From: Verrucomicrobiales bacterium
Lineage (GTDB): Bacteria; Verrucomicrobiota; Verrucomicrobiia; Verrucomicrobiales; DEV007
NCBI GenBank assembly: GCA_002698785.1
Contig: PAAG01000025.1
Coordinates: 1-43,889, forward strand
Length of the DNA stretch: 43,889 nucleotides
Direction: 5' to 3'
Shown: piece after piece, positions 12,917 through 35,205 of the stretch
Numbering within the stretch: the first letter of the stretch is position 1
Layout: every line of letters begins with the position of its first letter
Made by a program: the position numbers and the translations under genes
Notes under the pieces: model-generated
Seen by the model: the letters and a program-made list of their open reading frames with translations, nothing else
The model's database searches: none
Told to the model about the DNA's origin: nothing

Positions 12917-14691
12917 CAGGCAGCCATGGTTTCAAGCGCTTCGATGTCGTGGCGAGAGGTGAACTCAAGAAATGTCTCGGAGCCTTCGCGGTTGGCGAGA
13001 TAGGCACGGAGGAGTGATTCAATTTTTGTATTGAGTTCTTCACCTGCCGCTACACTCTTGTAGATCTGGCGCCCGAGCCGTTTGTTGTCTCCGCCGAAGC
13101 CTCCACCAATAAAGACGTGGTAGCCTTCGACAGGTTCTGCTTCTCCTTCGACCTGCACTTTGCAGGCGAGTAGACCGATATCTCCGATGTAGTGCTGCGC
13201 GCATGAGTGCGGGCAACCAGTAACATGAATGTTGATCGGCTGATCGAGTGTCAGCTTCGACTCAAGGTAATCGACGACTTCCATGGCGTGGCCCTTCGTG
13301 TCAGAGCTGGCATATTTGCAGTAGCGATTGCCTGTGCAGGCAGCTGTTCCTCCCCGAATGTGACTCGCTTCGCACCGAATCCCGCCTTCAGCGAGTTTCG
13401 CCTTGGCTGCTTTGATTTTATCGTCGGGAATGTTCGGAATGATGAGGTTCTGGAAAATGGTAAGGCGTAAATCGCCCGTTCCGAATTCTTCAGCGACATC
13501 AGCGATCAGTCGTGCCTCGTCGGTTTGAAGAAGACCAACAGGAACGTATACGCCTAGCATGTTTAACCCCGCCTGCTTCTGCGGCTGCACACCTACGTGA
13601 GAGTGGGGGATGTTCGGCTTCTCATGTGGTTCGATGAGATCCGTAAATGCAGGGTCGTTGAAATCGAAACGAATGAGAGGCTCATCGAGCAGCTTGTCAG
13701 TTTCTTCGAGATACTTCTCGTAACCCCATTCTTTGATCAGATAGATCATACGGGATTTGCCGCGGTTGCCGCGATTTCCATTGCGGATGAAAACGCGCGT
13801 CAGTGCTGCCACGGCATCAACTGAGTCATCGGGTGCACAGATAGCTCCGCAATCTTCGGCGAACTCCTGGTGGCCAGTCACTCCGCCAAGAAGGATGCGG
13901 AAGTAGACTCCGGCTTTCACTTTTCCGTGAAGCGGGTGTCCTTCTGGTGGCTCTTTCAATTTTATAGCTCGAAGACCAATGTCATTGGTGTCTTCGGCTA
14001 CTCTTACAATACCACCACTGTCGTAGGAGATATTAAATTTTCGTGGCAGGTTGTAGAACTCCTGCTGATTGATGATGTAGTGCGAGAGGTCCTGCACATA
14101 GGGGAGAACATCGATCAATTCATACGGATCTAATCCGGATGTTGGCGTCGCTGTGAAGTTCCTCAAGTTGTCTGCGCCGGACCCACGGGAATGTAGCCCG
14201 CAGTCTTGAATGCGGCGAAGCAACTCGGGAGCGTCTTTCGGCTGAACAACACGCACCTGGAAGTTGTTCCGAGTAGTGATCTGCAGGTAACCCCATGCAA
14301 TATCATCAGCGATTGAAGCGAGTTCACGCAACTGATAGGAACTCACTGTCCCTCCAGGTATCCGAAGTCGGCACATGTAGCCTTCGTGAACCGGAGCGAG
14401 CCAGAAGAGACCGTTCCATTTGAAACGGAAGATGTCTTCCTTCTCGGGGGGAACATTTCCTTTGGCTTTCTTCCGAAGTTCTGGAAGAGCATCAAAGGGA
14501 TTGAGTTCGTTTTTGATCTTCTCTTCGGCTGTGATCTTTTCCTTCTTTGCTTTTGGAACTGGTCCGTCGTTCGGTGCAGCATCCGCGAAGCTCATGCCGC
14601 GGTTTCGCATTCCCGTGAAGAATCCGTCGAGGTATTGCGCCTGGTCGGAATTTACCGGTTCTCCGGCGATTTTGTCAGGTATCAGGCTCAT
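12916..14691 (-). CDS. nirA: siroheme nitrite reductase, NirA type
   Basis: The 591-residue protein has the duplicated ferredoxin-like/siroheme fold of ferredoxin-dependent nitrite reductase, which makes ammonium from nitrite by six-electron reduction. The cluster/siroheme cysteines are C452-x5-C458 in 'ACTGNRYCKYA' and C493-x3-C497 in 'TGCPHSC'. The 'ACTG..YC....SDTK' form resembles plant/cyanobacterial nitrite reductase rather than sulfite reductase. 'ITTRNNFQVR' and 'NISYDSGG' are further family marks. An N-terminal extension of about 60 residues is Lys-rich. It lies one base after the CysJ-like gene and overlaps the DmsBC gene by TGATG, so supply of electrons by the flavoprotein is likely. 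Confidence 0.92.
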   Translation of the reverse strand: MSLIPDKIAGEPVNSDQAQYLDGFFTGMRNRGMSFADAAPNDGPVPKAKKEKITAEEKIKNELNPFDALPELRKKAKGNVPPEKEDIFRFKWNGLFWLAPVHEGYMCRLRIPGGTVSSYQLRELASIADDIAWGYLQITTRNNFQVRVVQPKDAPELLRRIQDCGLHSRGSGADNLRNFTATPTSGLDPYELIDVLPYVQDLSHYIINQQEFYNLPRKFNISYDSGGIVRVAEDTNDIGLRAIKLKEPPEGHPLHGKVKAGVYFRILLGGVTGHQEFAEDCGAICAPDDSVDAVAALTRVFIRNGNRGNRGKSRMIYLIKEWGYEKYLEETDKLLDEPLIRFDFNDPAFTDLIEPHEKPNIPHSHVGVQPQKQAGLNMLGVYVPVGLLQTDEARLIADVAEEFGTGDLRLTIFQNLIIPNIPDDKIKAAKAKLAEGGIRCEASHIRGGTAACTGNRYCKYASSDTKGHAMEVVDYLESKLTLDQPINIHVTGCPHSCAQHYIGDIGLLACKVQVEGEAEPVEGYHVFIGGGFGGDNKRLGRQIYKSVAAGEELNTKIESLLRAYLANREGSETFLEFTSRHDIEALETMAA

Positions 14692-14692
14692 A

Positions 14693-16447
14693 TCAGTAAA
14701 CGTCCCTCTGGTATCTCTTTTCCTTTTTCAGATTGTTGATGAACTCGGCAGCACCTTCTTCTCCGAGACCACCGTGAACGGCGGCCACGTGGAGGAGTGC
14801 GTTGTCGACATCTTTGGCCATGCGCTTGGCATCGCCACATACATAGAAATGGGCTCCTCCATCGAGCCATTTCCAAAGTTCCTCTCCGGCTTCTCGCATC
14901 TTGTCCTGGACATAGACTTTTGTGTCGCTGTCGCGGGACCAGGCGAGGTCGAAGCGGTGGAGACATCCCTTTTCCTGCATGCCGAGCAGCTGATCTCGGT
15001 AAAGGAAGTCAGTTGATTCGTGGGGGTTTCCGAAGAAGAGCCAGTTCCGGCCCGTTGCATCTGTTGCCTCCCGCTCTTCCAGGAATGCACGGAATGGTGC
15101 GATTCCCGTTCCGGGGCCACACATGATGACATCGGTTGAGAGATCGGTTGGCAACTTGAAATGTGCTGCAGATTGGAGAAACACCGGCACGGTGCCATCT
15201 CCATTCACACGGTTCGCGAGATATGTCGAACAGACCCCTTCCCGGTATCGACCGTGACTCTCGTAGGTGACTTTTGCCACTGTGAGATGAACCTGTTCCG
15301 GGTGCGCCTTGGGGCTGGAAGAAATCGAGTAGAGTCTCGGTCCCAACTTGCGTAGAAGTGCTACAAAGTCTGCTGCCTTATCGAAAGAGACCGGCGCCTC
15401 AATCGCAAGATCGATCAGCTCACGGCCCCAGAGAAACTCTTCCAGAGGAGTTTTGTCCTCATTGGTGGAGAGTTCTTTGAGATGTTCGGACCCGGAAAGT
15501 TCCGCCCAGTCTGCGACGGTCATCGCGCTCACAGCGCGAATGTCGAAGTCCTCGATCAAAGCGTCACGAAGTGCCTTCTCTTCCTTGTCAGGGGTGGTCA
15601 CCACCTCAACGGGATCCAGTCCGAGAACTTTAATGAGTTCGTCGACGGTTTCCGCATTGTTTTTCGGGTAGATACCTAACACGTCACCAACATCATAGGT
15701 GAGGCCCGAGCCTTCGAGGCTGAACTCGAAGTGACGAGTGTCCCGTGGAGATTCCTCTCCGTTGAGCGGCACGTTTCCAATGAGCTTTGCCGGGAATGGA
15801 TTCTTCTTCGAATATCCGGTATCCTTTTTCTTCGCCTTGGGCGCGTCGGAATCGGAAGTATCGCCGTCGTCTCCACCGAGCTTCTTCAACTCGGTAAGAA
15901 CGCCGGAAAACCACTCTGCAGCCGGTTCTTCGAAGTCGGTATCGCAGTCGACCCGCGGGTGGAATCGCTTGGCCCCGAGCGCTTCGAGTCGCGCGTCGAA
16001 CGCTTTCCCCTGAGCACAGAACTGGAGATAATTAGTGTCTCCAAGAGCAAGCACCGAGTAGGAGAGGTTCTCCAATGATGGGTGATCGTCGCTATTGAGA
16101 GTATTCCAGAACTCGACAGCATTGTCGGGTGGATCACCATCGCCCCAAGTGCTGGAAACGAGGATGAGATGCTTCTCTTTAGTGAGGTCGATTTCGCCGA
16201 AGTCCTCCGTGCTGAGACAGGGGGCGTCGAAGCCCGCGGAGGATAACTCCTCCGCGAACTCCTCGGCCAGTGTCTCACTGTTACCGGATTGGCTCGCGTA
16301 CAGAACGGGTGTGCGGAGCTTTGGTTTGCTGACAACAGCAGGGGAAGCCGAGGCTTCTCCAACCAATCCGGCGATGTACCCGTTCAGCCATAAGATCTGA
16401 GCAGGCGTGAAGGGAGCGGAATCGGGAATTGATGGTAATGAGTTCAC
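14693..16447 (-). CDS. CysJ-type FMN/FAD diflavin reductase
   Basis: The 584-residue protein has a flavodoxin domain (about 47-190; 'VLYASQSGNSETLAEEFAEE', 'VSSTWGDGDPPDNA', 'LALGDTNY') and a ferredoxin-reductase-like FAD/NADPH domain ('RLYSISSSPKAHP', 'GVCSTYLANR', 'MCGPGTGIAPFRAFLEER', 'FYVCGDAKRMAKDV'). It ends in 'KRYQRDVY' like E. coli CysJ, with a terminal aromatic residue. CysJ takes NADPH electrons to the siroheme subunit of sulfite reductase. Here the partner one base downstream is NirA, so the pair probably acts as an NADPH-nitrite reductase. The start is GTG. Sulfite reduction as a second role cannot be excluded. Confidence 0.88.
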   Translation of the reverse strand: MNSLPSIPDSAPFTPAQILWLNGYIAGLVGEASASPAVVSKPKLRTPVLYASQSGNSETLAEEFAEELSSAGFDAPCLSTEDFGEIDLTKEKHLILVSSTWGDGDPPDNAVEFWNTLNSDDHPSLENLSYSVLALGDTNYLQFCAQGKAFDARLEALGAKRFHPRVDCDTDFEEPAAEWFSGVLTELKKLGGDDGDTSDSDAPKAKKKDTGYSKKNPFPAKLIGNVPLNGEESPRDTRHFEFSLEGSGLTYDVGDVLGIYPKNNAETVDELIKVLGLDPVEVVTTPDKEEKALRDALIEDFDIRAVSAMTVADWAELSGSEHLKELSTNEDKTPLEEFLWGRELIDLAIEAPVSFDKAADFVALLRKLGPRLYSISSSPKAHPEQVHLTVAKVTYESHGRYREGVCSTYLANRVNGDGTVPVFLQSAAHFKLPTDLSTDVIMCGPGTGIAPFRAFLEEREATDATGRNWLFFGNPHESTDFLYRDQLLGMQEKGCLHRFDLAWSRDSDTKVYVQDKMREAGEELWKWLDGGAHFYVCGDAKRMAKDVDNALLHVAAVHGGLGEEGAAEFINNLKKEKRYQRDVY

Positions 16448-16480: not shown

Positions 16481-17278
16481 TCAGGCGGCCTCGTCCATTT
16501 GGTAGACTCTTTCTTCGAGGAAGCTGATCAGCTGCTCGCGATACTCGAGATATCTCGGGTCGGACATGATGTCTCGACGATCCCTCGGTCGTTCGAAGTC
16601 AATCTTTACGATCTCACCCACGCGTGCGGCTGGGCCGTTGGTCATCATCACTACGCGGTCAGCGAGGTAAATCGCCTCATCCACATCGTGGGTGATCATC
16701 ATGGCTGTGAGTCGTTCCCGGTTCCACAGATCGATAAGGACCTGCTGTAGTTCGAACTTGGTCAGCTTGTCCAGCATCCCAAACGGCTCATCGAGGAGTA
16801 GCATCTTCGGCGAGAGCGCGAATGCTCGTGCCAGTCCGACACGCTGTCTCATTCCTCCGGAGAGTTCAGAGGGGCGCTTGTCCTTCGCACCGTGGAGACC
16901 CACGGCGTTCAGGTAGTATTCGACGATCTGGTTCCTCTCTTCCTGGGTGGCGTGGAAGTAGACCTGCTCGACTCCGAGCATGACATTGTCCCATGTGGTC
17001 ATCCAGGGCAGGAGACAGGGCGATTGGAATACCACACCCCTGTCGGGGCCAGCTCCTTCGATTTCTTTATGATCCAGCAGGACAGATCCCTCACTGATAT
17101 CGTTCAGACCAGCTACCATAGAAAGGACGGTCGATTTCCCGCACCCGGAGTGACCGAGCACGCAGACGAACTCTCCTTTCTGCATCTTCAGGTCGAAACC
17201 TTTTACGATGACGGCGTCGCCAGATGGCGTCTTGTAAGTTTTGCCAAGATTGATGGCTTCAAAATATGTTTCAGGCAT
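16481..17278 (-). CDS. nrtD: nitrate ABC transporter ATP-binding protein
   Basis: The 265-residue ATPase has Walker A 'GHSGCGKST' (42-50), Q-loop '[10 protein letters not shown]', signature 'LSGGMRQRV' and Walker B 'MLLLDEPFG'. It belongs to the NrtD/SsuB/TauB group that drives uptake of nitrate, sulfonates and similar anions. It lacks the NrtA-like C-terminal regulatory domain of cyanobacterial NrtC. It follows the other ATPase gene with three bases between them, and the two probably form a heterodimer on NrtB. Which of the two is called nrtC or nrtD is arbitrary here. Confidence 0.9.
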
Positions 17279-17281
17279 GAC

Positions 17282-18184
17282 TTAGGCAGCGGTTATGGTT
17301 TTCTTGGGTTTCGGACGAAGACCAAAGAACCAGCTCGGCTTGTGTCGGCTGATGTCCATGGGACGAATGTTAGGCAATGAGACTGCCTTGGTACCTGAGG
17401 CGGCACGTTCCTTTTCTTTTTCGTTGAGAAGGAAGTTGATCACTTCGGTGCGAAGCTTCTGATACTCGGGGCTGGTCATGATCGCCTTCCTGTCACGAGG
17501 GCGTTCGTAGCTCACAACCGTTTCTGGTCCCAGAGTGGCAGGAGGCCCAACGCTGATCGGGATAATCCGGTCAGCCATGTAGAGCCCTTCATCGACATCA
17601 TTGGTGATGAGGATGATTGTCTGCCCGAGCTCTTTCCAGATCCCGAGGATCTGATCCTGAATTACGCTTCGCGTAAGAGCGTCGAGAGCGCTGAGTGGCT
17701 CGTCGAGCAGCAGCACATCCGGATTCATGGAAAGGGTGCGGGCTACCGAGTTTCGCTGGCGCATCCCTCCCGAGAGTTCGCCCGGCTTTTTGTGCAAGGC
17801 GTCAGTGAGATTGACCCGGTCTATTGCAGTCCGGATCTTCTCATCTTTACTCTCGGAAGACTCACCTGCGTATACCTCGTTTACCGCGAGTTCTACATTC
17901 TTGTAGACATCAAACCAGGGAAGGAGTGAGTAATTCTGAAAAACAAGGCCGCGTTCGGGACTAGGTCCTTCGACCTTTTTCCCGTTCACGATGACTTCGC
18001 CCTTGTCGGGCTTAATAAGACCGGCGATCAAATTCATGATCGTCGATTTGCCGGTGCCTGAGTAACCGAGCATGGCGATGAATTCGCCTTTCTCGATGTG
18101 GAGGTTGATGTCCTCGAGCACCTCGCTGCGATTCGTTCCGGAGCCGAAGCCGACCGATACGTCGTTTAGTTCAATATAGGCCAT
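17282..18184 (-). CDS. nrtC: nitrate ABC transporter ATP-binding protein
   Basis: From ATG 18184 the protein has 300 residues: Walker A 'GYSGTGKST', Q-loop 'VFQNYSLLPW', signature 'LSGGMRQRN', Walker B 'VLLLDEPLSALDA'. The open frame runs on to 18298, but that part lies inside the permease gene and has no family similarity. The C-terminus carries about 40 extra residues after the ATPase core ('KAVSLPNIRPMDISRHK'), far short of the regulatory domain in cyanobacterial NrtC. It is probably paired with the 265-residue ATPase. The gap to NrtB is 37 bp. Confidence 0.9.
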   Translation of the reverse strand: MAYIELNDVSVGFGSGTNRSEVLEDINLHIEKGEFIAMLGYSGTGKSTIMNLIAGLIKPDKGEVIVNGKKVEGPSPERGLVFQNYSLLPWFDVYKNVELAVNEVYAGESSESKDEKIRTAIDRVNLTDALHKKPGELSGGMRQRNSVARTLSMNPDVLLLDEPLSALDALTRSVIQDQILGIWKELGQTIILITNDVDEGLYMADRIIPISVGPPATLGPETVVSYERPRDRKAIMTSPEYQKLRTEVINFLLNEKEKERAASGTKAVSLPNIRPMDISRHKPSWFFGLRPKPKKTITAA

Positions 18185-18221
18185 GATAGTTTTATGGCTG
18201 ATTGTTAGTCGAGCGGCAGGA

Positions 18222-19469
18222 CTAGATGTTCTGCTCTTCGAAGGTGACGAGGCGCTGGCAAACCAGCATGATACGGTCGAGAAAGAATCCGATGGCACCG
18301 ATTACGAACACAGCCACGATAATTTGCGCGGTGCTCATGGTGTCGCCGTTCTGGTACATGTCCCAGACGAACTTTCCGAGGCCCTGGTTCTGCGCCATCA
18401 TGTCGGCGGCGATGAGAACCATCCAGCCAACTCCGATAGAGAGGCGAAGACCAGTAAAGATGAGTGGTAGGGAAGCGGGGAGAACAATTTTCCCGATCCG
18501 CTTTGCCCAACCAAGTTTAAGTACCTTGGCGACGTTGAGGTGATCCTTATCAACGGAAGCGACGCCCACCGCAGTATTGATCAATGTAGGCCAAAGTGAG
18601 CAGAGCATCACAACACCGGCTGATGTGAAAAGCGCGCGCTGCCAGATGGAGTCGGACGGTGGAGTCGCGATACCCCAAGTCGTGAATACGAACACGATAG
18701 GGAACCACGCGAGAGGGCTCACTGGCTTAAATAGCTGGATGAGCGGGTTCATCGCAATGTTGAACATCGGCGAAATCCCGCAGAGAACTCCAATCGGAAC
18801 TGCAACCACTGTGGCTACGATAAATCCGATTGCCACTGTCAGCAAAGAGATCCAGATCTGGTCGTAGAACGTCTTATTTCCCTGGTAGGTCTTGGAGGCG
18901 AACATCTCCGAATTCTCTTTATACTTTGCTGCTTTCTCGGTATCACCCTCTGCGGCGGCCTCTTCTGACCTTGCGAGAAACTTGTCGACGCGTTCTTGCT
19001 GCGAGATCATGTATTCCTTTTCAGCAAGTTTCTCTGCCTGAGCGAAGCCGTTGATCGACTTCGGGTCCATACCGTCATTATCCGCAAAGTAGGGAGCCTC
19101 TAGGCCCTCGATGCTTTCCGGAAAAGGATGACTGAAGGCGGGTATAGCTGTACCGGTCAGAGCATACCATGCCTGGTGTGGGCTTGGAATCTGAACGCTG
19201 TCTGTTTGTACTGCCTTCGCGAGGACTGCCCAGGCGATAACGAAACCTGCGAATGCAACGATCGGGAGAAGCGTGTTCAACGCGATTTCACGAAGTTGCT
19301 TTGCTGGTTCGTCTTTCCCAATCAGCCGGGCGAAAGGGGAGAAATACCCCAGGCCCAGCTTGTTGAGTGTATGTGCAACCCGGTTTGGGTTGTAAGTGAA
19401 TTTTGATTTCTTTGCTTTGACGGCGCCTTCTGGGGGCGCCGTCGTCGTATCTACTACTGCTCCATTCAT
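18222..19469 (-). CDS. nrtB: nitrate ABC transporter permease with a large inserted segment
   Basis: The 415-residue permease is of the NrtB/BPD_transp_1 type ('FKPVSPLAWFPIVFVFTTWG', 'INTAVGVASVDKDHL', 'LGWAKRIGKIVLPASLP', 'GVGWMVLIAADM'). It is well over 100 residues longer than usual NrtB. The extra part lies between the first membrane helix (about 65-88) and the second (about 208-232). It is hydrophilic, Glu/Lys/Ala-rich and likely helical ('AEKLAEKEYMISQQERVDKF', 'AAAEGDTEKAAKYKEN'). By the usual topology this segment would face the periplasm and could contact the binding protein. It is second after nrtA in the operon. Confidence 0.88.
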   Translation of the reverse strand: MNGAVVDTTTAPPEGAVKAKKSKFTYNPNRVAHTLNKLGLGYFSPFARLIGKDEPAKQLREIALNTLLPIVAFAGFVIAWAVLAKAVQTDSVQIPSPHQAWYALTGTAIPAFSHPFPESIEGLEAPYFADNDGMDPKSINGFAQAEKLAEKEYMISQQERVDKFLARSEEAAAEGDTEKAAKYKENSEMFASKTYQGNKTFYDQIWISLLTVAIGFIVATVVAVPIGVLCGISPMFNIAMNPLIQLFKPVSPLAWFPIVFVFTTWGIATPPSDSIWQRALFTSAGVVMLCSLWPTLINTAVGVASVDKDHLNVAKVLKLGWAKRIGKIVLPASLPLIFTGLRLSIGVGWMVLIAADMMAQNQGLGKFVWDMYQNGDTMSTAQIIVAVFVIGAIGFFLDRIMLVCQRLVTFEEQNI

Positions 19470-19522
19470 AGCTACTGACTTGGTGTTAAAGATTGCAATT
19501 ACAGTGTTCGATTGGCGGGCTC

Positions 19523-20890
19523 TTATTTGAGCCCGATGTCGAACGACTGGATGTATTCGTTAGGCTTGGTGCCGTCGTAGGTCTTGCCGTCGATGAATTC
19601 CGAAGTGGGCTCTTTATAGCCACCGCTTTCGAAAGCAGCGAATGCCTCAGCGAAGTCTTCTTCTTCGAATTCGCCATCATCAATGAGCTCCTTCACGGCT
19701 TCCATGTAGACGTCAGGACGATAAATTTTCTCTGCCATCTCCTTAAAGTAGCTGTCAGGCTTCTGCTCGGCGATCTGACCCCAACGGACCATCTGAGTGA
19801 GGAACCAGACGCAGTCGCTGTAGTAAGGATAACTGGCGTTGTAGCGGAAGAAGACGTTGAAGTCAGGCATCTCGCGCTTGTCACCTTTTTCGAATTCGAA
19901 AGTTCCCGTCATGCTGTTGCTGATCACCTCAACAGGCGCACCGACGTAGTTTGGCTGAGAAAGAATCTCGGCAGCTTCAACACGGTTTTCAGGTGCTGCG
20001 TCGAGCCAGTGTCCAGCGCGGATGAGCGCTTTCGTTACCGCGATCCAGGTGTTTGGATTGGCTTCAGCCCACTCTTTGGAAACACCGAATACTTTTTCCG
20101 GATTGTTCTTCCAGATGTCGTAGTTCGTTGTTACAGGAACACCGATGCCTTTGAATACGGCCTGCTGGTTCCATGGCTCACCAACACAGTAGCCAACGAT
20201 TGTTCCCTGTTCGAGAGTCTGTGGCATTTGTGGCGGAGGAGTTACAGAGAGTTCTACATCACCGTTGAGGAATCCGGGAACGTCTACCTGCCCAGTTGAT
20301 GGGTCGAAGTAGAATCCTGGCTTGATGCCTGCAGCGGCGAGCCAATAGCGGATTTCGTAGTTGTGCGTCGAGACTGGGAAAACCATTCCCATCTTGAGCT
20401 TATTGTTGGCGGCGACAGCTGCGTCGGATATCGGCTTCAGGCTCTCTGCGGTGATGGGGTGGATGGGCTTGCCATCTTCATCGGCAGGAACGTTTGGCTT
20501 CATCTGTTCCCAGAGGTCGTTGGAGACAGTGATGCCGTTACCGTTGTAATCGAGACTGTAGGCAGTCATGATGTCTGCCTGCGTTCCGAAACCAACAGTG
20601 GCTCCGATAGGCTGGCCGGCCAGCATGTGGGCGCCGTCGAGGTCTCCGGTGATCACGCGGTTCAGCAACTCTTTCCAGTTGCCCTGTGCTTCGACAGTGA
20701 CGCTGAGGCCCTCATCATCGAAGTATCCTTTTTCTTTCGCTATGACGATAGGGGCACAGTCAGTCAGCTTAATAAAGCCGAACTTCAGCGTGTCCTTTTC
20801 GACATCCAACAGATCAGCCTTCGCGGGTACGATGAGAGCAACGACCGCTGCAATCATCGTGGGTTTGATCAATTTCAGTTTAGGTATCAT
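19523..20890 (-). CDS. nrtA: nitrate-binding periplasmic protein
   Basis: The 455-residue protein starts with a signal peptide (about residues 1-26, '[18 protein letters not shown]') without a lipobox, then an NrtA/CmpA-type periplasmic binding fold ('[21 protein letters not shown]', '[15 protein letters not shown]', '[15 protein letters not shown]', '[19 protein letters not shown]'). It binds nitrate or nitrite and hands it to NrtB. Unlike many NrtA proteins it has no N-terminal cysteine anchor, so it may be freely soluble. Bicarbonate (CmpA) is the alternative ligand, made unlikely by the operon content. Confidence 0.9.
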
Positions 20891-20941
20891 TTCGTTTCGT
20901 TTCTGGTTTAACTAGGTGGGGGTGGGGGCTTGGGCTGAAAA

Positions 20942-22039
20942 TCAAAGTAATTTGAGGGAGATGTTTCGGTCGCTGGCTTGCTGGGATGCAGTTGCCTGGT
21001 CGAACAGGTCCTCACGAAAAATTCGGTTAATCGAGGGGCCCGACTTCACCTCTGCGTCAGTGATGAGGCCAGCGTATCTCATCTGGGCGAGGAGCCAGTT
21101 GGCCTTGTCCAGCGTGGGACGGTTCACCTCTGGATGTGAAAAGACGTGGAATCTCTCGCTGGAGACAGCGCCCTCTGATTCGTCGCCTGCAAAGAGGCTC
21201 GAACGAATAAGGTCTTTATCCAGTCCCAGGAATTGCGGGTGCGAAAGGATGTCGGCAGCGATGTCTCTGCCCTCCGGAGTCTCGCAATGGGCTGCTGCTT
21301 CAGCGATGGCTTCAATCAAAGCCATGTGAAGATCATGTTCGCGCTCTTCGAAAGCCTCGGTGACGACGAGTGCTTTTTCTGGATGCATTGGGGCAACCTG
21401 GGCAGATTCGGCCACGATGACTCCTGCTTCTTCCTGCACAGCTTGAGTGTTGAATGGTTCCCCGACGCAGTAGCCATCGATATTTCCACTGGCAAGGCAA
21501 GTTGCCATCAGTGAAGGAGGAAGGATGATCACTTGGTAATCGCGACCACTTTGCAGCCCGGCAGGACGAAGCCAGTGGAGAAGGAGGAAATGGTGTGTGC
21601 TGAACAAGTGAGGGACGGCAAAAGTGACCGGACGATCTCTTCGTTCCGTCTGAATGTATTTCGCCAGCGTTTTGGGATCGAGCACTCCTCTTTCATTGAA
21701 CTCATTGGAAAAGGTAATGGCGTCTCCATTGGAGTTGAGAAGATAGCCCGTCAGACAAGGTTGACGCAAAACTCCGAGGCCCCAGTTCAAGGCGAAGGCA
21801 AGACCTACAGGAGCGTGCGCAGCTTCGAGTTCTCCATACGCTACCTTGTCGCGGATGGAAGCCCAACCTGGCTCACGCATCAGTTGCACGTTGAGTCCGC
21901 GGCGGGCAAAGATGCCTGCCTCGGCTGCTACAGCGATGGGAGCGCAATCGACGAGAGGGACGAATCCTATTCGTAAAGTCTCGTTTTGTCTGTTCAATTT
22001 TCTTGGCACGCACAATCTATTGAGCCTTTTACGTGCCAT
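20942..22039 (-). CDS. cytoplasmic NrtA/NasS-like ligand-binding protein
   Basis: The 365-residue protein has the same fold as NrtA ('LRIGFVPLVDCAPIAVAAEAG', 'GELEAAHAPVGLAFAL', 'GNIDGYCVGEPFNTQAV') but no signal peptide: its N-terminus is Arg/Lys/Asn-rich. It therefore most likely stays in the cytoplasm. Two relatives fit: NasS, which senses nitrate and holds the antiterminator NasT, and the regulatory domain fused to cyanobacterial NrtC. 'REPGWASIRDKVAYGELEAA' is NasS-like. No nasT/ANTAR gene is in the window. It is the first gene of the nitrate operon and diverges from the LysR gene, so it is probably a nitrate sensor. A GTG start at 22009 is an alternative. Confidence 0.85.
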   Translation of the reverse strand: MARKRLNRLCVPRKLNRQNETLRIGFVPLVDCAPIAVAAEAGIFARRGLNVQLMREPGWASIRDKVAYGELEAAHAPVGLAFALNWGLGVLRQPCLTGYLLNSNGDAITFSNEFNERGVLDPKTLAKYIQTERRDRPVTFAVPHLFSTHHFLLLHWLRPAGLQSGRDYQVIILPPSLMATCLASGNIDGYCVGEPFNTQAVQEEAGVIVAESAQVAPMHPEKALVVTEAFEEREHDLHMALIEAIAEAAAHCETPEGRDIAADILSHPQFLGLDKDLIRSSLFAGDESEGAVSSERFHVFSHPEVNRPTLDKANWLLAQMRYAGLITDAEVKSGPSINRIFREDLFDQATASQQASDRNISLKLL

Positions 22040-22112
22040 CGCTATCGGTTGGTCCGGGAATTGCTTTCAATGATTTCATCGGATGCATGAGAATCACTCA
22101 TGATTGAACGGG
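22040..22112. promoter_or_regulatory. divergent promoter of the nitrate operon and lysR, with operator
   Basis: Only 73 bp separate the two divergent genes. CATGAG-AATCA-CTCATG (arms 22086-22091 and 22097-22102) is a perfect inverted repeat that contains the LysR-type T-N11-A pattern (T22088 to A22100). It lies a few bases before the LysR start, a usual place for autorepression. The gap is too short for a NasT-type two-hairpin leader RNA. Binding by the adjacent LysR is inferred. Confidence 0.55.
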
Positions 22113-24077: not shown

Positions 24078-24488
24078 TCAGGAATAGGATGCATCCTTCA
24101 TCACAGTAGCCAGGGTGTTATAGGTTTCGGCCCATGCAGCCTTGGTTTCCTCGGTGAAGTCATCTCCAAGGCCCACAGCCAGAGTGTCCAATAGAGCGGC
24201 TCCGACTGTGTCGTAGTGCTCAGCTTTGACCCCGTAATCAACGTGGCGCTTTCCGAGGTTTTGCACGGCAGGGATCAGAGCTTCCAGATTGTCGAGGCCG
24301 CGAACGGCCGTCGTAATCATCTGCATCAGTTTCTTGCCTTGTTCCTTCATGTCCGCCTCTGCAAAAAGGGGCTTCACGTCTGGATCGAGAGCGAAGAGTT
24401 TTCCGTAGAAAATCTCTGCTGCCTGATCTGCGATGGGAACCACTTTTTCCCAACTTCCCTTTACGAGTTCTTTTTGTTCTTCTGTCAT
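24078..24488 (-). CDS. single-domain globin (Vitreoscilla hemoglobin type)
   Basis: The 136-residue protein is a myoglobin-fold bacterial hemoglobin without a reductase domain. The proximal heme ligand is H82 in 'LGKRHVDYGV', and Q50 stands at the distal E7 position 32 residues before it, as in Vitreoscilla hemoglobin (Q53/H85). 'ALIPAVQNLGKRH' is a strong family mark. Such globins bind O2 and NO, and can turn NO into nitrate when a reductase supplies electrons. It is placed 12 bp after a cytochrome c lipoprotein gene and near nitrate/nitrite enzymes, so NO defence is the most likely role. It has no export signal. Confidence 0.92.
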   Translation of the reverse strand: MTEEQKELVKGSWEKVVPIADQAAEIFYGKLFALDPDVKPLFAEADMKEQGKKLMQMITTAVRGLDNLEALIPAVQNLGKRHVDYGVKAEHYDTVGAALLDTLAVGLGDDFTEETKAAWAETYNTLATVMKDASYS

Positions 24489-24500: not shown

Positions 24501-24887
24501 TTAGCGTGGAGTGGCAATCATGAACTTCACGGCAGCGGTGACCTGTTCATCGGTCAAGCTCTTGTTGTCTCCCTTGGGTGGCATGTGGCCGTAGGTTCCT
24601 TGAAATCCGTTGATCGCGTGATCTATGAGAGTCGCCTCTCCCTTCTGCATCCGCTGATCCCACTCAGACTTATGGTGAATCATGGGGGCCCCTTCTTCGC
24701 CTTCGTTGTGGCAAAGGCCGCATGTTTCAGCATAGACCGACTTCCCGAGGACGAGTTCCGGGTCTTCCGGCTCCCATTCCCAGGGGAGGGCGGGTTTGGC
24801 AGATTCCTTCTTCTCCTCTTTGCAACTCACAGTGAAAGCGAGGATGGAAAGTAGGAGCGTGAATGGAGAGAGAGTGCGCACTTTCAT
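24501..24887 (-). CDS. cytochrome c lipoprotein (class I, c5/c555-like)
   Basis: The 128-residue protein has a lipoprotein signal with lipobox 'FTVSC' (C22), a linker and one heme c site, C56-G-L-C59-H60. A likely Met ligand is in 'YGHMPPKG' near residue 102. The size and the layout 'Y..TCGLCH...G.....H....W' suit small mono-heme electron carriers of the cytochrome c5/c555 kind. It would sit on the outer face of the inner membrane or on the outer membrane. It lies 14 bp after the DUF3365 gene in the same operon and probably shuttles electrons for the multiheme protein. Confidence 0.88.
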   Translation of the reverse strand: MKVRTLSPFTLLLSILAFTVSCKEEKKESAKPALPWEWEPEDPELVLGKSVYAETCGLCHNEGEEGAPMIHHKSEWDQRMQKGEATLIDHAINGFQGTYGHMPPKGDNKSLTDEQVTAAVKFMIATPR

Positions 24888-24901: not shown

Positions 24902-25516
24902 TCAGTCAACTGGGATGCGGATAACGACTCCGCCCATGACGTCGCCCTGCTTGAATTCAGGATAGTCGTCTTTGCGGTTCTCGTGATCGTTGTGGCACTC
25001 CCAGCATGCAGCGGCGACGGCCTTGTCAGGATAGATTCCGATGAAGTATTTCTGGTCGCCGATGGTTTCTTCGCCGTAGAAGTTTTCACCGTCTGTATCG
25101 ATGGAATGTTGGAGGCCTTCCTTTACCACAGGAGTCTGCTTCATCGAGTTCTCGTAGTTCAGAGGCCAGAGTGATTGCAGCGAGTAGCTGAATGGCACAG
25201 GCTTGTCGGGCACGAGGTCGACTTCTTCAGCTCCACGGCGGAACATCTGGGCGGGTAGAAGCAATGTCTTATTTGCTTGCCACTCTTCATGCGGTGTGAT
25301 CACGCCTTCACTTTTCAAGCGAGTCACGATGTCGCGGGCATAGACTTTACGGTCCGACTTCAGGACGATGTAAAGGCTGTCAGCGAGCTGCTGGGGAGTG
25401 AACTGTGCTCCAGCTGCCGCCTGCGAGTCAGAGCAGGACGTAAGCACAGAGCCAGTGGTGACAACCGCGACGGCCAAGGCCAGGGCGATTCCGATTTTGG
25501 CTATTTTGTTTTTCAT
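24902..25516 (-). CDS. DUF3365 (Tll0287-like) heme lipoprotein
   Basis: The 204-residue protein has a signal peptide with lipobox 'LTSC' (C28), then a DUF3365 domain. The landmarks are 'LKSEGVITPHEEWQANKTLL', 'AQMFRRGAEEV', 'FSYSLQSLWPLN', 'QKYFIGIYPDKAV' and one heme c site C171-W-E-C174-H175. Relatives of cyanobacterial Tll0287 bind a c-type heme in a PAS-like fold and are thought to act in redox sensing. Here it may be an electron-transfer or sensor component of the neighbouring cytochrome chain. The gap to the multiheme gene is 53 bp. Confidence 0.85.
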   Translation of the reverse strand: MKNKIAKIGIALALAVAVVTTGSVLTSCSDSQAAAGAQFTPQQLADSLYIVLKSDRKVYARDIVTRLKSEGVITPHEEWQANKTLLLPAQMFRRGAEEVDLVPDKPVPFSYSLQSLWPLNYENSMKQTPVVKEGLQHSIDTDGENFYGEETIGDQKYFIGIYPDKAVAAACWECHNDHENRKDDYPEFKQGDVMGGVVIRIPVD

Positions 25517-25569: not shown

Positions 25570-26961
25570 TTAGTTCGAGCTTTCGATTTTCTTACGGTGG
25601 GCTTCCCGTCGCTCTTCAACCTCGCGGACCCAGTCGAGACTTTCGACGTGGACCTCCGGTTTCCCGTTGAAGTTGTTTTCGATCAGCTTTCGATCAGCGA
25701 GGGAATCCATGGTAAAGCCGAGGCCGTGACAGTTCATGCACACCCCGCGATACATTTTCTCGTTGGGGTGAAGGTTTGCATTCTGGTTGTGTTGTACAAC
25801 CTCTACCTTTGTCCCAGAGGTGGAGTCCGTGCGCGTCTCGCGGGGCAGATGGCAGGTGGCGCAAGAGACTCCGGTTCCTGCTGGTGCCTTACCATTCAAC
25901 TCGGCATTCCAGAGTGCGAAATGGGGTGATGCGCTGAAGTTATTCGTATGGTCGTCGTCATGACACTGCATGCAGGCCTCGGCGGCTGCATACTCCCGGT
26001 CGAAGCGGTGGGCACCGTGACAGGATGTGCAATCTAGCGACTCATGAGCCATCTCTGGTTTCATCGGGAGCCGAGCCATCGACGGCTCCATGGGAGAAAG
26101 GTCCACGGCGAGGCGCATGCCATGTTTCCCTTTCCTAAAATCCTGGGTCTCGAGGGTGTGACAAGTAGCGCAGGATTCGATGGCTGGTTTGTCCTGCCAT
26201 GCCGCGCCTTTTCCATGGCAGTCACTACAGTTCACCCCGGCGGCAGCATGAGCCGTACTGGCCCAGTCAGCCACATGTTCCGGGGCGGACGCGATTCTGT
26301 CCGCAGGTGCATCAGGAGTGGTACTCGGTGGGCGCTCGTTTCCGGCCGATATCCATCGGTAGACTGCCTTTGAGAGTTCGCGTTTTGGTTCTGGCAGGAC
26401 TGCGGGTTCGGCAAGGTGCTCACTGAGGAAAGACTCGAAGAGCGAGAGGTTATCATGAAAATTGTGACATCCAGCAGTCTCGCAGCTGTTAAAGGCCAAT
26501 CCCTCATGCGTCTCTCGATGCTCCAGCGTTACATCGTGGCAATGCGCGCAATAATCGGGCGGAATCGTCACGGCCATTGGGTGGGTTCGGTCTTCGAGAT
26601 GCTCCGCGTGGCAAGTAACACAGTCCGTAGCCTTGATGTGCTCCAGGAAAATCGCGTTCTCAGGATTTCGAAACTTGATGACCGGGTGAGAGTCGTTCGC
26701 CAGCTCGAGATCCTGCTTGTGGCATTCCATACACGCCTTGTTGCTGACTCCAGAACTGGTGAAGAGGCCATCGACCGGTTCGCTGTCATGACAGACATCG
26801 CATCGCTGTTCGATTTGGTGATGGCCGTCTGTCGTGATTCCCGGAAGGAGTTCGCGCTTGTCTTCTTTCGCAAAGAATACCCACGTCAAATACCCCGCCA
26901 GCAGGAGTGTGACTCCTGCCCAGATCCAGATGGGGCGTTTGCTGGCTGCGAACAAAGACAT
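25570..26961 (-). CDS. membrane-anchored multiheme cytochrome c (11 heme sites)
   Basis: The 463-residue protein has an uncleaved membrane anchor (about 11-31) and then ten CxxCH sites (C54, C77, C114, C138, C245, C264, C311, C330, C367 and C408) plus one CX4CH site ('CETAGCH' at 160-166). Many extra histidines could serve as sixth ligands, which suggests bis-His electron-transfer hemes. The sites form two groups (54-166 and 245-412) joined by a heme-free Pro-rich linker, like two fused smaller cytochromes. It is NapC/NrfB-like in style but too large for either. It starts by a TGATG overlap with the flavocytochrome gene, so the two are probably made and used together. Confidence 0.88.
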   Translation of the reverse strand: MSLFAASKRPIWIWAGVTLLLAGYLTWVFFAKEDKRELLPGITTDGHHQIEQRCDVCHDSEPVDGLFTSSGVSNKACMECHKQDLELANDSHPVIKFRNPENAIFLEHIKATDCVTCHAEHLEDRTHPMAVTIPPDYCAHCHDVTLEHRETHEGLAFNSCETAGCHNFHDNLSLFESFLSEHLAEPAVLPEPKRELSKAVYRWISAGNERPPSTTPDAPADRIASAPEHVADWASTAHAAAGVNCSDCHGKGAAWQDKPAIESCATCHTLETQDFRKGKHGMRLAVDLSPMEPSMARLPMKPEMAHESLDCTSCHGAHRFDREYAAAEACMQCHDDDHTNNFSASPHFALWNAELNGKAPAGTGVSCATCHLPRETRTDSTSGTKVEVVQHNQNANLHPNEKMYRGVCMNCHGLGFTMDSLADRKLIENNFNGKPEVHVESLDWVREVEERREAHRKKIESSN

Positions 26962-28967
26962 CAGTAGAGGTAGACAGAGAGAATGTGGAAACAGAGCAGA
27001 ACCGGGAACGGCCAGAACAGGATCACGTGCGCCCAGGTCAGCGAAGGGCGAATACGGCGGGCATAAACAGCAGCCTTTCCAGTTCCGCGAACTTCAAGGG
27101 ACGCAATGATTCCGGCGAAAGCGCCGAGGATGTTCAGCGCAACGAAAACAAACATGAGCCAGAAGTTCAGGTTATCTCCAAACTTGAACCCGGTATGCGC
27201 AAAGAGCCCTATCAATGACGCTGTACCAAAAGCTGCATGAAAGGCGCGCCAATTGATAAAGTTCCCGAAAGTGAACCAGGAAAAGCGCTTTCGCAGCGAC
27301 ATCACCAATCCAATCAGAGACAAACCCAGCAGCGTATATCCCGTGACTTGCTTTGACACAAAATCGCGCCACAGGGAATCGAGTTTGTACCATGGATCTT
27401 CGACCGAACCAGGTATGGTAAGGGGCGGAGCAAAGATGACGAGCAGTGCCAAAAGAATCGCCGCACCTGAGAACCACATCAAAAGACGTGACTTCGGGGT
27501 AGCTGCTTCGGACGCAGGGATGACCTCACCTGCTAGTTCCGCGACCAACGGTTTACAACTTCCGCAGACGCTTCCCGCTCCCGTCTTTGAAGAAAGACCT
27601 TCCAGGTCTCTGTTTCCTTCTTCGATCAATTTGCAAAGCGTTCCTTTCGTCACCTGCATGCAGTTGCAGACGATGGCTTTATCCGCCCATGTCGTTACCG
27701 AACACTCGCTGCCGTCGCTCCAGATCTGCCCCGTAGATTCGAAGTGTTCGCGCTGACTCTTCTTCAGTTTCTGCTTCTGGAGAATGGCGGTCTGAACCTG
27801 TCCGACCTCGGGCCACGAACCCACTACTAGAGCACCCTTGAGGCGGAGTTTTGCGTCAAAACTGAGGTGCCGATACTCAGTCTCGGATTGGTAGGTAGAA
27901 GTCTCACCTGGCTGTAGCGGTTCCCCTAACGTTACCACGTCGACTCCCATCATCTTGAGTCGAGTGGAAGTATCGGCTCCGGTAAATTTCTCCTTCTTTT
28001 TCCCGCTCAGTATTTTCGCGAGAGTATCGGCCATCTGGTATCCCGGAGCGGCTAGGCCATAGATTCGGTTGCCGTGTTCAGCACACTCACCGATTGCGTA
28101 GATATCGGGAATCTCGGTTTCAAGACTGTTATTGACTTTGATTCCTCCACGGCCTCCGAGAGGAATTCCCGCCTCTTTGGCTAGCGATGACTGTGGTCGA
28201 ATGCCCGCCGCGACGATCAGTAGATCGACTTGGATATCATCAGATCCATCGAGGTGAATTTTGAGACCATCATTCGTTTTCTCAATCGACTCGGTCTTAG
28301 TTTCCAGGTGGAGTTCAAAACCTTGTTTTTTGATCTCGTTGAGAAGGATCTCGCTGGCTGATGGATCAAGCTGCTGAGGCATTAGAAAGCGCGCAAGCTC
28401 GATGATGTGGATATTCTCGACTTCCAGGTATTGGAGTGCTTGCGCAGCTTCCAGTCCTAACAAACCACCTCCGATCACTGCTGCGGATCTTGCCTTTTTT
28501 GCGACATCGCAAATCGTGGCGAGATCTTCGATGGTGCGATACACATGCACCCCGTCGAGATCGTGACCGGGAAAAGGGGGTACAAAGGCGTAGGAGCCCG
28601 TTGCAAATACCAGAGAGTCGAATGGGTAGGTCGCTCCTTTGTCGTCAGTGACAGTCTTTTCTCCTGGATTCAGAGAGGAAATTCGTGTGCCGGTCTTAAG
28701 TTCGATTCCATTTTCCTCATACCATTCAGCAGGGAGCAATTCGAGTCTGCTCGGTTCACGGTTTAGGACATAGCTCGACAGCCTGACCCGATCATATGCC
28801 GGACGCGGCTCTTCACCAAAAACAGTTACAGAGTGTTTAGATGTGTAACCGGAGGAGACAAGCTTCTCGCAAAACTTCGCGCCGACCATGCCATTGCCGA
28901 TGACAAGCGTGCGATGCTTTTCGACAGGCGATGACTCGTTTGATGTCACTTTGTTCCGAGGTTTCAC
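26961..28967 (-). CDS. NirB-like FAD/[2Fe-2S] reductase fused to a di-heme cytochrome b-like domain
   Basis: The 668-residue protein has three parts. Residues 20-400 are a NirB/NasB-type FAD-NAD(P)H oxidoreductase with 'VIGNGMVGAKF' (22-32) and 'VIGGGLLGLEAAQAL' (164-178). Residues 431-475 are a BFD-like [2Fe-2S] domain with C434, C436, C468 and C471. Residues 493-668 hold about five membrane helices, two of which carry histidine pairs exactly 13 residues apart: H577/H591 and H647/H661. That is the spacing of trans-membrane di-heme cytochrome b. NirB has a siroheme domain where this protein has the membrane part, so it cannot reduce nitrite like NirB. It probably moves electrons across the membrane to the multiheme cytochrome. 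The GTG start is uncertain. Confidence 0.88.
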   Translation of the reverse strand: MKPRNKVTSNESSPVEKHRTLVIGNGMVGAKFCEKLVSSGYTSKHSVTVFGEEPRPAYDRVRLSSYVLNREPSRLELLPAEWYEENGIELKTGTRISSLNPGEKTVTDDKGATYPFDSLVFATGSYAFVPPFPGHDLDGVHVYRTIEDLATICDVAKKARSAAVIGGGLLGLEAAQALQYLEVENIHIIELARFLMPQQLDPSASEILLNEIKKQGFELHLETKTESIEKTNDGLKIHLDGSDDIQVDLLIVAAGIRPQSSLAKEAGIPLGGRGGIKVNNSLETEIPDIYAIGECAEHGNRIYGLAAPGYQMADTLAKILSGKKKEKFTGADTSTRLKMMGVDVVTLGEPLQPGETSTYQSETEYRHLSFDAKLRLKGALVVGSWPEVGQVQTAILQKQKLKKSQREHFESTGQIWSDGSECSVTTWADKAIVCNCMQVTKGTLCKLIEEGNRDLEGLSSKTGAGSVCGSCKPLVAELAGEVIPASEAATPKSRLLMWFSGAAILLALLVIFAPPLTIPGSVEDPWYKLDSLWRDFVSKQVTGYTLLGLSLIGLVMSLRKRFSWFTFGNFINWRAFHAAFGTASLIGLFAHTGFKFGDNLNFWLMFVFVALNILGAFAGIIASLEVRGTGKAAVYARRIRPSLTWAHVILFWPFPVLLCFHILSVYLY

Positions 28968-29171: not shown

Positions 29172-30410
29172 TTAGTATTTGAAGTCGAGTTCGAGCGAAG
29201 CTCTCGTCACATCAGGCTGTCCGCCCATGCCGTCGAAAAACGCTGCTTTCGCAAGAATCGAAAGACCGTTGCCAAGGTCTTTGCTTGCTACTAGATCGAC
29301 TTCCTGGCCGAGAGCTACATCGTAGCCGTCATCCCAGAAGTAGTGATAAGCCGCTACGAACTTTGCGCCGAATGGAATCGGAGTAGCGACAGAAGCATAC
29401 CAGTCAGTGAGGCCACCAGCAGGTGTTGCGAGGAAGCGGTCAGCAAATCCGTTGAACTTGTGATTGGTTCCAAGAGGGAAGGCAAAGCCGCGTCCGCTTG
29501 AAGATCCAAGATACTCCATTCCCAGTGTTCCTTTCACAGTCTCTGTGAGATTACCGGAAACCGATGCGTGCACATAGTTTGCTTCGTAGTCGATCGGGTT
29601 GCTGTATGCGTCGATCTGGTGGGCATACTCGAGGTAGTAGTCCATTCCAGTGTCGCAAAGCGGTCCAGCAAGAGAGAACCCGAAGCTGGTGTTGCTGTTG
29701 ATATCGCCAGCGAGGTTGTGAAGGTCGAGCGAGTAGACATAGGTCGTCAACGTGCCGAGCGGTGTATTCTTGAACTTCGTGTTGAAGATGTGCGAGTTTC
29801 CGGTGAAGTCCGTGTGAGGTGGGAAGAATACATCTGATCCGAAGATCCGATTCACCTGCCAGATGAAGCCGTAGTAGACTTCGATGTCCTTCGTTGGATT
29901 AAAGGTGATTCCTGCAGCGTCGTAGGTCTGCTCGTTCTGACGCCAGCCGACGTTGCCGACCCATCTCCAGTTATCGAGAATGATTCGCTGACGACCAACC
30001 TTGACGCCCCAGACGTCGCTTGGTGCGGTGTAGGACACCCATGCCTGATTCAATTCATGAGACTCGGGGTCTGCGATGATTGTTTTTCCGGCAGGCCCGT
30101 GGACACTGGCAGCGCGATAGCTGTTGCGGTCCACTGCGAGCGTTCCTTCGTATTCACCGAAAATCTGGAAACCTCCCATCTCCCGGCTGAGCAAACCGAC
30201 TCGGTTACGCATCGTGCCTGCATGCGAAACATCCAGCCCTTCCTGGTCGCCATATTCATAGCGGATCCTGGTATCAAGAGTTGGTTTTACTAGAGCAGGC
30301 ATTTTGTCGTTCAAAACGACTTTGCCATATTCTTCGCCAGCAGTGCCGACGGCCATCCAACTGCCAGCTGCAGTTGCCATTAGGAGTGTTACAAAGCGGT
30401 GGACTTTCAT
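29172..30410 (-). CDS. outer-membrane beta-barrel porin (alginate-export-like)
   Basis: The 412-residue protein has a signal peptide (about 1-24, 'LLMATAAGSWMAVGTAG') and a barrel-like alternation of aromatic and polar residues to the end 'ASLELDFKY'. The pattern 'TLDTRIRYEYGD', 'NRVGLLSREMGGFQIFGEYE', 'SYTAPSDVWGVKVGRQRIIL' and 'YDAAGITF' is that of the alginate-export/OprD-like porin family. It probably lets small anions or oligosaccharides across the outer membrane. Its place between the heme cluster and its own terminator, facing the same way as the nitrate genes, fits a nitrate/nitrite channel; substrate is inferred only from context. Confidence 0.8.
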   Translation of the reverse strand: MKVHRFVTLLMATAAGSWMAVGTAGEEYGKVVLNDKMPALVKPTLDTRIRYEYGDQEGLDVSHAGTMRNRVGLLSREMGGFQIFGEYEGTLAVDRNSYRAASVHGPAGKTIIADPESHELNQAWVSYTAPSDVWGVKVGRQRIILDNWRWVGNVGWRQNEQTYDAAGITFNPTKDIEVYYGFIWQVNRIFGSDVFFPPHTDFTGNSHIFNTKFKNTPLGTLTTYVYSLDLHNLAGDINSNTSFGFSLAGPLCDTGMDYYLEYAHQIDAYSNPIDYEANYVHASVSGNLTETVKGTLGMEYLGSSSGRGFAFPLGTNHKFNGFADRFLATPAGGLTDWYASVATPIPFGAKFVAAYHYFWDDGYDVALGQEVDLVASKDLGNGLSILAKAAFFDGMGGQPDVTRASLELDFKY

Positions 30411-34778: not shown

Positions 34779-34786
34779 GGGGAAGG

Positions 34787-34814
34787 CGTTAGCTTTTAGC
34801 GGTTAGCTCTTAGC
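34787..34814. repeat. left heptamer array (four NNTTAGC units)
   Basis: CGTTAGC, TTTTAGC, GGTTAGC and TCTTAGC lie head to tail. The array runs from just upstream of the DUF1552 start into the end of the four-helix-bundle gene, whose stop codon and last residues (L-R-A-N-R) are encoded by it. It is inverted relative to the array at 35182-35202. Confidence 0.85.
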
Positions 34815-35155
34815 TTTTGTATGAAAGCGTTGAGCATGCGTTTGATCTCGGTGAGTTCGGCGTTTGTCGTTTCGAAGATTTCTGCAGAAATATACCTCAA
34901 GTCGCAAGCGAGGATGAGTTGATATTCGAGTTCTGAAGCAGAACCCATGGCCATGTCGAGAAACCTAGCGAAGTCTTTATCTGTGCTCCGCCCACAACCT
35001 TCCGCGATATTAGTTGGGATTGAGGAAACTGAACGACGCATCTGGCTAAGTAAGCCATAGGTTTCGATGCTAGGAAAGCTTTGGGTAATGCGGTAGATAT
35101 CAAGAGTAAGTCCATGTGAGCGATTCCAGATTTGGAGGTCTCTAAAGTTTTTCAT
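34796..35155 (-). CDS. four-helix bundle protein (S23 / 23S rRNA intervening-sequence family)
   Basis: The 119-residue protein has the family pattern: '[20 protein letters not shown]' , '[21 protein letters not shown]', '[21 protein letters not shown]' and '[15 protein letters not shown]' (first 20 residues of each). These proteins were first found in intervening sequences of 23S rRNA genes and also occur alone across genomes; no enzyme activity is known. Here the gene splits two operon partners, DUF1592 and DUF1552, and is bounded by inverted heptamer arrays. That looks like an inserted cassette rather than a functional member of the operon. Confidence 0.9.
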
Positions 35156-35181
35156 TCACAGTTGGCATTCTTCATCGGGAA

Positions 35182-35202: not shown

Positions 35203-35205
35203 GCT

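Follow-up and report, generated by a model that had tools for sequence, protein, structure and literature searches.

The window analysed here is the whole stretch of 43,889 nucleotides of contig PAAG01000025.1 (assembly GCA_002698785.1), from a Verrucomicrobiales bacterium. It encodes a protein in which a NirB-type FAD/NADH module and a BFD [2Fe-2S] motif are joined to a five-helix, putatively di-heme membrane domain (hereafter the fusion), and the fusion gene is followed by genes for c-type heme proteins and, further downstream, by nitrate genes (Table 1). An earlier note, made from the letters alone, had proposed this domain order, with H577/H591 and H647/H661 each spaced by x13. The order and the two histidine pairs were confirmed, the FAD/NADH and BFD modules by Pfam and the histidines by our main alignment of 11 full-length fusions, that is, the window protein and ten relatives with 40-52% identity to it, which all carry them.

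Table 1. Features of the window around the fusion gene.
Feature	Position	Strand	Remarks
Fusion gene, 668 aa, FAD/NADH + BFD [2Fe-2S] + five-helix putative di-heme b domain	26961..28967	-	GTG start
NirB-type FAD/NAD(H) module, residues 19-303	28059..28913	-	Pfam Pyr_redox_2, 2.7e-53
BFD [2Fe-2S] motif, residues 432-478	27534..27674	-	Pfam Fer2_BFD, 1.7e-10
Membrane domain, residues 490-668, five predicted helices	26964..27500	-	AlphaFold2 helices (low confidence) + charge pattern
H577, putative inner-heme ligand, helix 3	27237..27239	-	invariant 11/11
H591, putative outer-heme ligand, helix 3	27195..27197	-	invariant 11/11
H647, putative inner-heme ligand, helix 5	27027..27029	-	invariant 11/11
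H661, putative outer-heme ligand, helix 5	26985..26987	-	invariant 11/11
Partner: 463-aa cytochrome c, 10 CXXCH + 1 CX4CH, N-terminal hydrophobic segment	25570..26961	-	
Partner: Tll0287-like (sCache_heme) protein, one CXXCH, lipobox-like N-terminus	24902..25516	-	Pfam PF11845
Accessory: monoheme cytochrome c, lipoprotein-like	24501..24887	-	
Accessory: single-domain globin resembling globin part of flavohemoglobin	24078..24488	-	
Alginate_exp-family porin-like gene, 204 bp upstream of fusion	29172..30410	-	
Nitrate-type ABC transporter: two NrtA-like, NrtB, NrtC, NrtD	16481..22039	-	
NasA-type molybdoenzyme, Fe-S+DmsC anchor, NirA-type siroheme reductase, CysJ-type flavoprotein	9172..16447	-	

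The NCBIfam NirB profile (TIGR02374) was matched by residues 22-479 of the fusion at profile positions 3-465 of 794, with 437 bits against a cut-off of 578. Because the match is confined to this part of the profile and stays below the cut-off, the siroheme half is absent from the fusion, and neither the siroheme/4Fe-4S half nor a curated NirB score was found. The cysteines C434, C436, C468 and C471 of the BFD motif are invariant in the 11 aligned fusions, as is E190 of the FAD/NAD(H) module. We take an acidic residue at this place to mean a preference for NADH, and the invariant E190 thus suggests that NADH, not NADPH, is the electron donor.

Residues 490-668 contain four histidines, which form the two H-x13-H pairs. 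Two or more such pairs arose in 0.12% of 100,000 shuffles of the membrane domain, and with this rate and the conservation in all aligned fusions a chance pairing was rejected. The four positions are the sole columns of the whole protein with histidine in at least 10/11 sequences, and no aligned relative lacks them. The two-pair pattern was also found by regular expression in the fusion genes of L087, L088 and L123/L130, and in L103, a variant truncated at its contig end. A search with residues 490-668, which the earlier note had suggested, found no Pfam family up to E 1, and profile comparison revealed a kinship to PCC-type proteins, described below. Moreover, no PDB sequence matched these residues up to E 10, and the membrane-domain profile gave one PDB match only, chance-like at E 1.6. 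Weak Pfam resemblances among the 11 membrane domains included cytochrome b561 in five (best E 2.2e-4) and DUF4405 in four (best E 0.028). Cytochrome b561 and Ferric_reduct are heme-b membrane families.

The Lys/Arg counts per loop, with helix limits set by eye, are 3 and 5 for the inner loops and 2 and 1 for the outer ones, which follows the positive-inside rule and therefore places the flavin module on the cytoplasmic side and the C-terminus outside. AlphaFold2 modelled the fusion with a mean predicted local distance difference test (pLDDT) score of 78.3 from 16 sequences, two of them spanning the whole membrane domain. The predicted helices cover residues 492-512, 525-561, 570-592, 600-627 and 631-651/653-667, and no histidine of the two pairs lies outside them: they fall in helices 3 and 5, at low confidence. 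Foldseek with the full-length model gave flavoprotein chains among the matches listed.

We then compared the neighbours at 14 loci (the window, L001, L077-L085 and L101-L103), leaving out G1142 with its 4.6 kb contig (L130). A multiheme cytochrome c gene and then a gene for a Tll0287-like c-heme protein lie downstream of the fusion in 14/14 loci, from two phyla, and in the window the end of the fusion gene and the start of the cytochrome gene share one base. These partners, the strictly conserved histidines in predicted helices 3 and 5 and the positive-inside loops support the proposal that NAD(P)H feeds a di-heme b-type domain spanning the membrane. The cytochrome carries 10 CXXCH and one CX4CH in 12/14 loci, 9+1 in L001 and 11+0 in L103, and its N-terminal hydrophobic peak exceeds 1.6 in 13/14 loci (1.46 in L102). 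Ten free histidines are present in all 14 rows and two more in 13/14, indicating that every heme could be bis-His by count, which would fit an electron wire; this is bookkeeping, not structure. The cytochrome profile gave short matches to octaheme and pentaheme nitrite reductases (best E 3.7e-8), and phmmer gave a match to hydroxylamine oxidoreductase (E 1.1e-6). Since the count allows two His ligands for each heme, it gives no sign of a free catalytic heme, and a nitrite reductase assignment was rejected on this basis; the protein may still have a catalytic role despite the count.

The Tll0287-like partner has a lipobox-like cysteine in 12/14 loci, and beyond the signal-peptide/lipobox region the cysteines of CXXCH are its only ones in 14/14, so that the axial cysteine reported for Tll0287 is missing. 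PMC12889525 describes stand-alone Tll0287/sCache_heme proteins, which like the partner combine PF11845 with CXXCH, whereas Tll0287 itself has the axial cysteine. A redox-related role is given there to a stand-alone Tll0287-type member, and tight binding of nitric oxide (NO) to a signalling-associated one. A reading of the partner as an NO sensor was not adopted in view of this division between redox properties and tight NO binding, though with the axial cysteine missing it may still hold. The accessory genes are less regular: tblastn found the monoheme c protein in 5/14 loci and the flavohemoglobin-like globin in 7/14. An Alginate_exp-type porin was detected near the fusion in 5/14 loci (the window, L077, L080, L081 and, by Pfam, L083; a large open reading frame (ORF) in L084 lay outside this test), and the link of the porin-like gene to the fusion is not constant.

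The earlier note had named no described enzyme with this domain order, and in searches of the open-access literature, subscription papers being outside this coverage, we saw neither the fusion nor its association with nitrate genes described; the text of PMC8238504, for instance, holds no occurrence of NirB, BFD, DUF4405 or multiheme. Complete novelty of the membrane domain was not supported, since it has kin in the five-helix proteins of He et al. 2017 (PMC5566968). That paper describes a PCC3/PCC4 'inner membrane protein' (IMP) with two H-x13-H pairs beside multiheme cytochromes, with W-x3-H before both pairs and SGXXG in helix 4, and the PCC3/PCC4 clusters are proposed there for Fe(II) oxidation. 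In the phylum of the gammaproteobacterial genome G437, 11 weak matches to our membrane-domain profile are open frames of 275-349 aa. Where the surroundings were fetched, 10/10 lie beside multiheme cytochromes, and in 8/10 another neighbouring protein has two 4Fe-4S-like motifs. Nine of the 11 were aligned (left out were L112, whose frame was missed in gene picking, and G835, whose surroundings were not fetched), and W-x3-H-x13-H twice with SGXXG between is invariant in all of them, as in the IMP motifs. Comparison of the membrane domain with these nine proteins by hhalign gave a probability of 97.3% and E 2.7e-11 over 80 columns. The fusions have H-x13-H in helix 3 and in helix 5, and W-x3-H before the first pair, in 11/11. 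As judged from these profiles and motifs, the membrane domain is remotely related to the PCC3/PCC4 IMP, with which it shares the neighbouring multiheme c cytochrome as well. Unlike the fusion, the IMP stands as a protein of its own (273-325 aa among the nine in the alignment) and has a long insert preceding helix 5, whereas in the fusion the domain is joined to NirB-type FAD and BFD modules and shows nitrate linkage in place of the PCC gene set. PCC3/PCC4 clusters combine a porin with periplasmic multiheme cytochromes; near the fusion the multiheme cytochrome is constant and the porins, where detected, are of the Alginate_exp type. According to PMC5615132, a different Verrucomicrobia porin-multiheme cluster has eight-heme cytochromes.

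Two further loci carry PCC-like genes. The window's own genome has a separate PCC4-like cluster, L129 (G000:C3:117000-133000, 4647-14001), with a cyclic nucleoside monophosphate (cNMP)/4Fe-4S protein, a 278-aa di-heme-type membrane protein that gave a sub-threshold Ferric_reduct match, a 950-aa multiheme cytochrome and further multiheme proteins. In G586 (L108, 8020-9891), a PCC-like membrane protein has as its neighbour a predicted frame containing 24 CXXCH motifs.

The distribution of the fusion was followed in genome surveys, which scored part of the first-look candidates per genome and whose negatives mean non-detection, no proof of absence. In the survey of the window's phylum, 24/387 genomes matched at E <=1e-60, and in nine of them, the window's own included, the match spans the membrane domain. 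One more congener with the fusion, G395, was found among 56 relatives. In a scan of genome contigs, L001, from a Verrucomicrobiales metagenome-assembled genome (MAG), was the sole locus of 44 matched to the protein end, and it is the nearest named relative. The membrane-domain profile matched 15/239 genomes of the order, seven strongly (own included) and eight weakly, and the window's own genome has one additional weak match. The same profile matched 14/398 genomes in the phylum of G437 (the Gammaproteobacteria MAG to which L022 belongs), strongly in G437, G561 and G580, and 1/198, weakly, in the phylum of G431 (Bacteroidota). The same partner genes lie downstream of the fusion in G437, G561 and G580. 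An assembly or annotation artefact was rejected, given that the same fusion occurs in two phyla. The search for the fusion and its neighbours elsewhere, also an idea of the earlier note, thus yielded both a second phylum and constant partners, and the fusion is real, conserved and biologically coherent. In G580, a variant (L089 1-1695 / L103 1-1695) has FAD_binding_6 and NAD_binding_1 inserted between BFD and the membrane domain; its N-terminus is truncated at the contig end, and the partners are kept.

In an unrooted tree of the FAD-BFD part, which has long branches, a weakly supported branch (72/39; recovered in 68% of the bootstrap trees) has all fusions on the same side, so a single origin of the fusion is possible. 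The short matches L037, L041, L042 and L043 were dropped from this tree, and L123 is the same as L130, so that its 15 fusion rows represent 14 genes. Of the nine fusion genomes in the phylum survey, four gave a match to a separate NirB-type ORF, and G437 (L022) also has a NirB of its own. With a tree that is unrooted and weak and with NirB coexisting in these genomes, the claim that the siroheme half had been 'replaced' was not borne out. NirB, the large subunit of the NADH-dependent assimilatory nitrite reductase, resembles the fusion in its FAD/NADH module, its one BFD motif and its nitrate context; the fusion differs from it in having a membrane domain instead of the siroheme half.

The linkage to nitrate genes is absent from the earlier note and was found in this analysis. 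A nitrate-type ABC transporter lies within the fetched stretch in 8/14 loci, or 9/14 counting the gammaproteobacterial L101, where the transporter belongs to L022, a locus of the same contig that overlaps L101 exactly at its end. The stretches of L001, L085 and L103 end early, which limits detection of the transporter there. At E 1e-150, NasA was found in 9/9 fusion genomes compared with 45/374 surveyed overall (hypergeometric 2.5e-9, a value that ignores relatedness, the nine genomes falling in four families). Because the fusion is present in only 9/45 NasA genomes, it would be an accessory to NasA nitrate use. Six further fusion genomes include two with NasA at 1e-150 (G395 and G1142) and four at 1e-50 (adding G437 and G561). 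NasA lies at another genomic place than the fusion in G319, G194, G211, G235 and G317. These gene contents suggest that fusion-bearing bacteria mostly use nitrate as a nitrogen source. Two features of the nitrate genes themselves were seen in the window. At 9172-12916, a membrane anchor that fuses Fe-S and DmsC parts comes after the assimilatory-type NasA, which suggests quinol-fed nitrate reduction, and at 12916-16447 the NirA-type and CysJ-type proteins resemble each other in an N-terminal 'Q..(Y/W)L.G(F/Y)..G' stretch, perhaps a docking helix common to both.

We propose that the fusion is an NADH:periplasmic multiheme cytochrome c oxidoreductase that exports electrons, a reading to which we give a probability of about 0.7. 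Cytoplasmic NADH would reduce the FAD, which would pass electrons one at a time to the BFD [2Fe-2S] cluster. From there they would reach one heme b near the inner face (ligands H577 and H647), cross to a second near the outer face (ligands H591 and H661), and move on to the apparently membrane-anchored 11-site c cytochrome of the next gene and to the Tll0287-like heme lipoprotein. We infer the heme binding, NADH as the donor, the outward direction and the partner contacts, and this electron-export core is likely. NirB-type modules work from NADH, and outward flow is favoured because it fits their direction. The destination of the electrons is less certain. A nitrogen-oxide acceptor is a hypothesis to which both the globin and the linkage to nitrate genes point. 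It is tentatively suggested, with the odds somewhat against it, that electron export supports nitrate assimilation, most likely through the handling of nitrite or NO by the periplasmic heme proteins; alternatively, the terminal acceptor may be Fe(III), O2 or another cytochrome. Still more doubtful is the complete picture, in which the fusion, the 11-site c cytochrome and the Tll0287-like lipoprotein would form an NADH-driven inner-membrane-to-periplasm machine of nitrate-assimilating bacteria that reduces nitrite or NO outside the cytoplasm during nitrate uptake. We know of no need for periplasmic electron export in nitrate assimilation, nor of a function in it for periplasmic nitrogen-oxide reduction by such a machine. 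To our knowledge, few single bacterial proteins take electrons from NADH and deliver them straight across the inner membrane to periplasmic cytochromes, with no quinone in between. If true, the proposal would describe a compact, testable export protein whose modules differ from those of NADPH oxidases, and it would connect the export of electrons to the periplasm with nitrate assimilation.

Several observations weigh against the export proposal or parts of it. The AlphaFold2 confidence is poor in the membrane domain, with block pLDDT values of 39-76 (54-76 in the His-bearing blocks), and the domain folded alone reached a pLDDT of 54.5 and a predicted template modelling (pTM) score of 0.34. Because the models of the membrane part are of low confidence, the heme geometry, including whether the His pairs face each other to sandwich two hemes, is unproven. 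With the lone-domain model, Foldseek found no match at E <=0.001 (best 0.40, a succinate dehydrogenase chain), and MFS_1, an unrelated membrane family without heme b, was weakly matched in 3/11 membrane domains (best E 0.0038). As for the kinship to the IMP, the profile match spans helices 2-4 without helix 5, W-x3-H precedes the second His pair in just 2/11 fusions, so that the motif before both pairs is not shared, and SGXXG of helix 4 occurs in 0/11, with G615 and G619 (G-x3-G) instead. On the nitrate side, the stretches of L078 (19 kb) and L102 (18 kb) contain no nitrate genes, and for this reason a nitrate role is not universal. The NasA proteins of G437 and G561, in the second phylum, pass 1e-50 only, at 37% and 35% identity, and NasA was not found in G580 and G430, two of the six further fusion genomes.

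Other routes for the electrons were weighed against the export proposal. In one, the fusion would be an NADH:quinone reductase whose di-heme domain passes electrons to (mena)quinone, the DmsC-anchored nitrate reductase using the quinol and the multiheme cytochrome lying on a side branch or itself being fed by quinol. Exchange of electrons with quinone was suggested as a possibility for the five-helix di-heme proteins of He et al. 2017 (PMC5566968), and the window has the Fe-S + DmsC anchor beside NasA; however, the multiheme cytochrome is adjacent at every locus, while Fe-S+DmsC is nearby only in the window, L077, L083, L084 and L101 (via L022), and the fetched stretches of L078-L082 contain no NasA or DmsC gene, which makes this route unlikely. 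The flow might also run inward, with a periplasmic or extracellular reductant, e.g. Fe(II), oxidised by the heme proteins and the electrons reaching NAD+ via the fusion. Sequence alone is compatible with the reverse direction, which counts against our proposal, and the Fe(II) oxidation suggested for PCC3/PCC4 clusters with the related domain and the porin-like gene upstream of the fusion would agree with it. Yet NirB-type modules start from NADH, the uphill transfer would require strongly reducing donors, and the porin is of the Alginate_exp type and is found near the fusion in a minority of loci; we consider inward flow very unlikely.

The earlier note had likened the protein to ferric reductases and NADPH oxidases, and an enzyme of this kind, whose outer heme reduces O2 or Fe(III) directly with the cytochromes as auxiliaries, would be a further alternative. 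The ferric reductase domain (FRD) superfamily (FRE, NOX, SpNOX, MsrQ/YedZ; SpNOX being a bacterial NADPH oxidase) has the same trans-membrane logic of NAD(P)H, flavin, heme and heme, with four histidines on helices 3 and 5, and the same H-x13-H pair logic is attributed to FRD proteins in PMC5566968. In the fusion, which has five predicted helices, the flavin module is unlike theirs in standing at the opposite end, in belonging to another family and in being combined with a [2Fe-2S] cluster, and the acceptor is apparently a c cytochrome, a constant partner. Ferric_reduct (PF01794) was matched in 2/11 membrane domains below threshold (best E 3.2) and in none over the cut-off. The membrane-domain profile gave 3.5% against an MsrQ-type pair, a weak test with a two-sequence alignment. 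Judged by the FRD/NOX criteria of Zhang et al. (PMC3591440), the extra NOX histidine, four residues after the second helix-3 ligand, is present in 1/11 fusions. By the tests run on these sequences, the fusion is not an NADPH oxidase or ferric reductase; the proposed kinship was not supported, and direct reduction of O2 or Fe(III) appears the least probable of the routes considered.

Between the electron-export genes and the transporter, a GAF-domain protein gene (23049-23996, minus strand) and a LysR-type regulator gene (22104-23048, plus strand) are candidate regulators, the latter divergent from the nitrate transporter genes. On the other side of the fusion, the region 30791-37686 encodes DUF1552 (HXXSHH), planctomycete-type cytochrome c/PSD proteins and two ORFs without a Pfam match, and is apparently unrelated.

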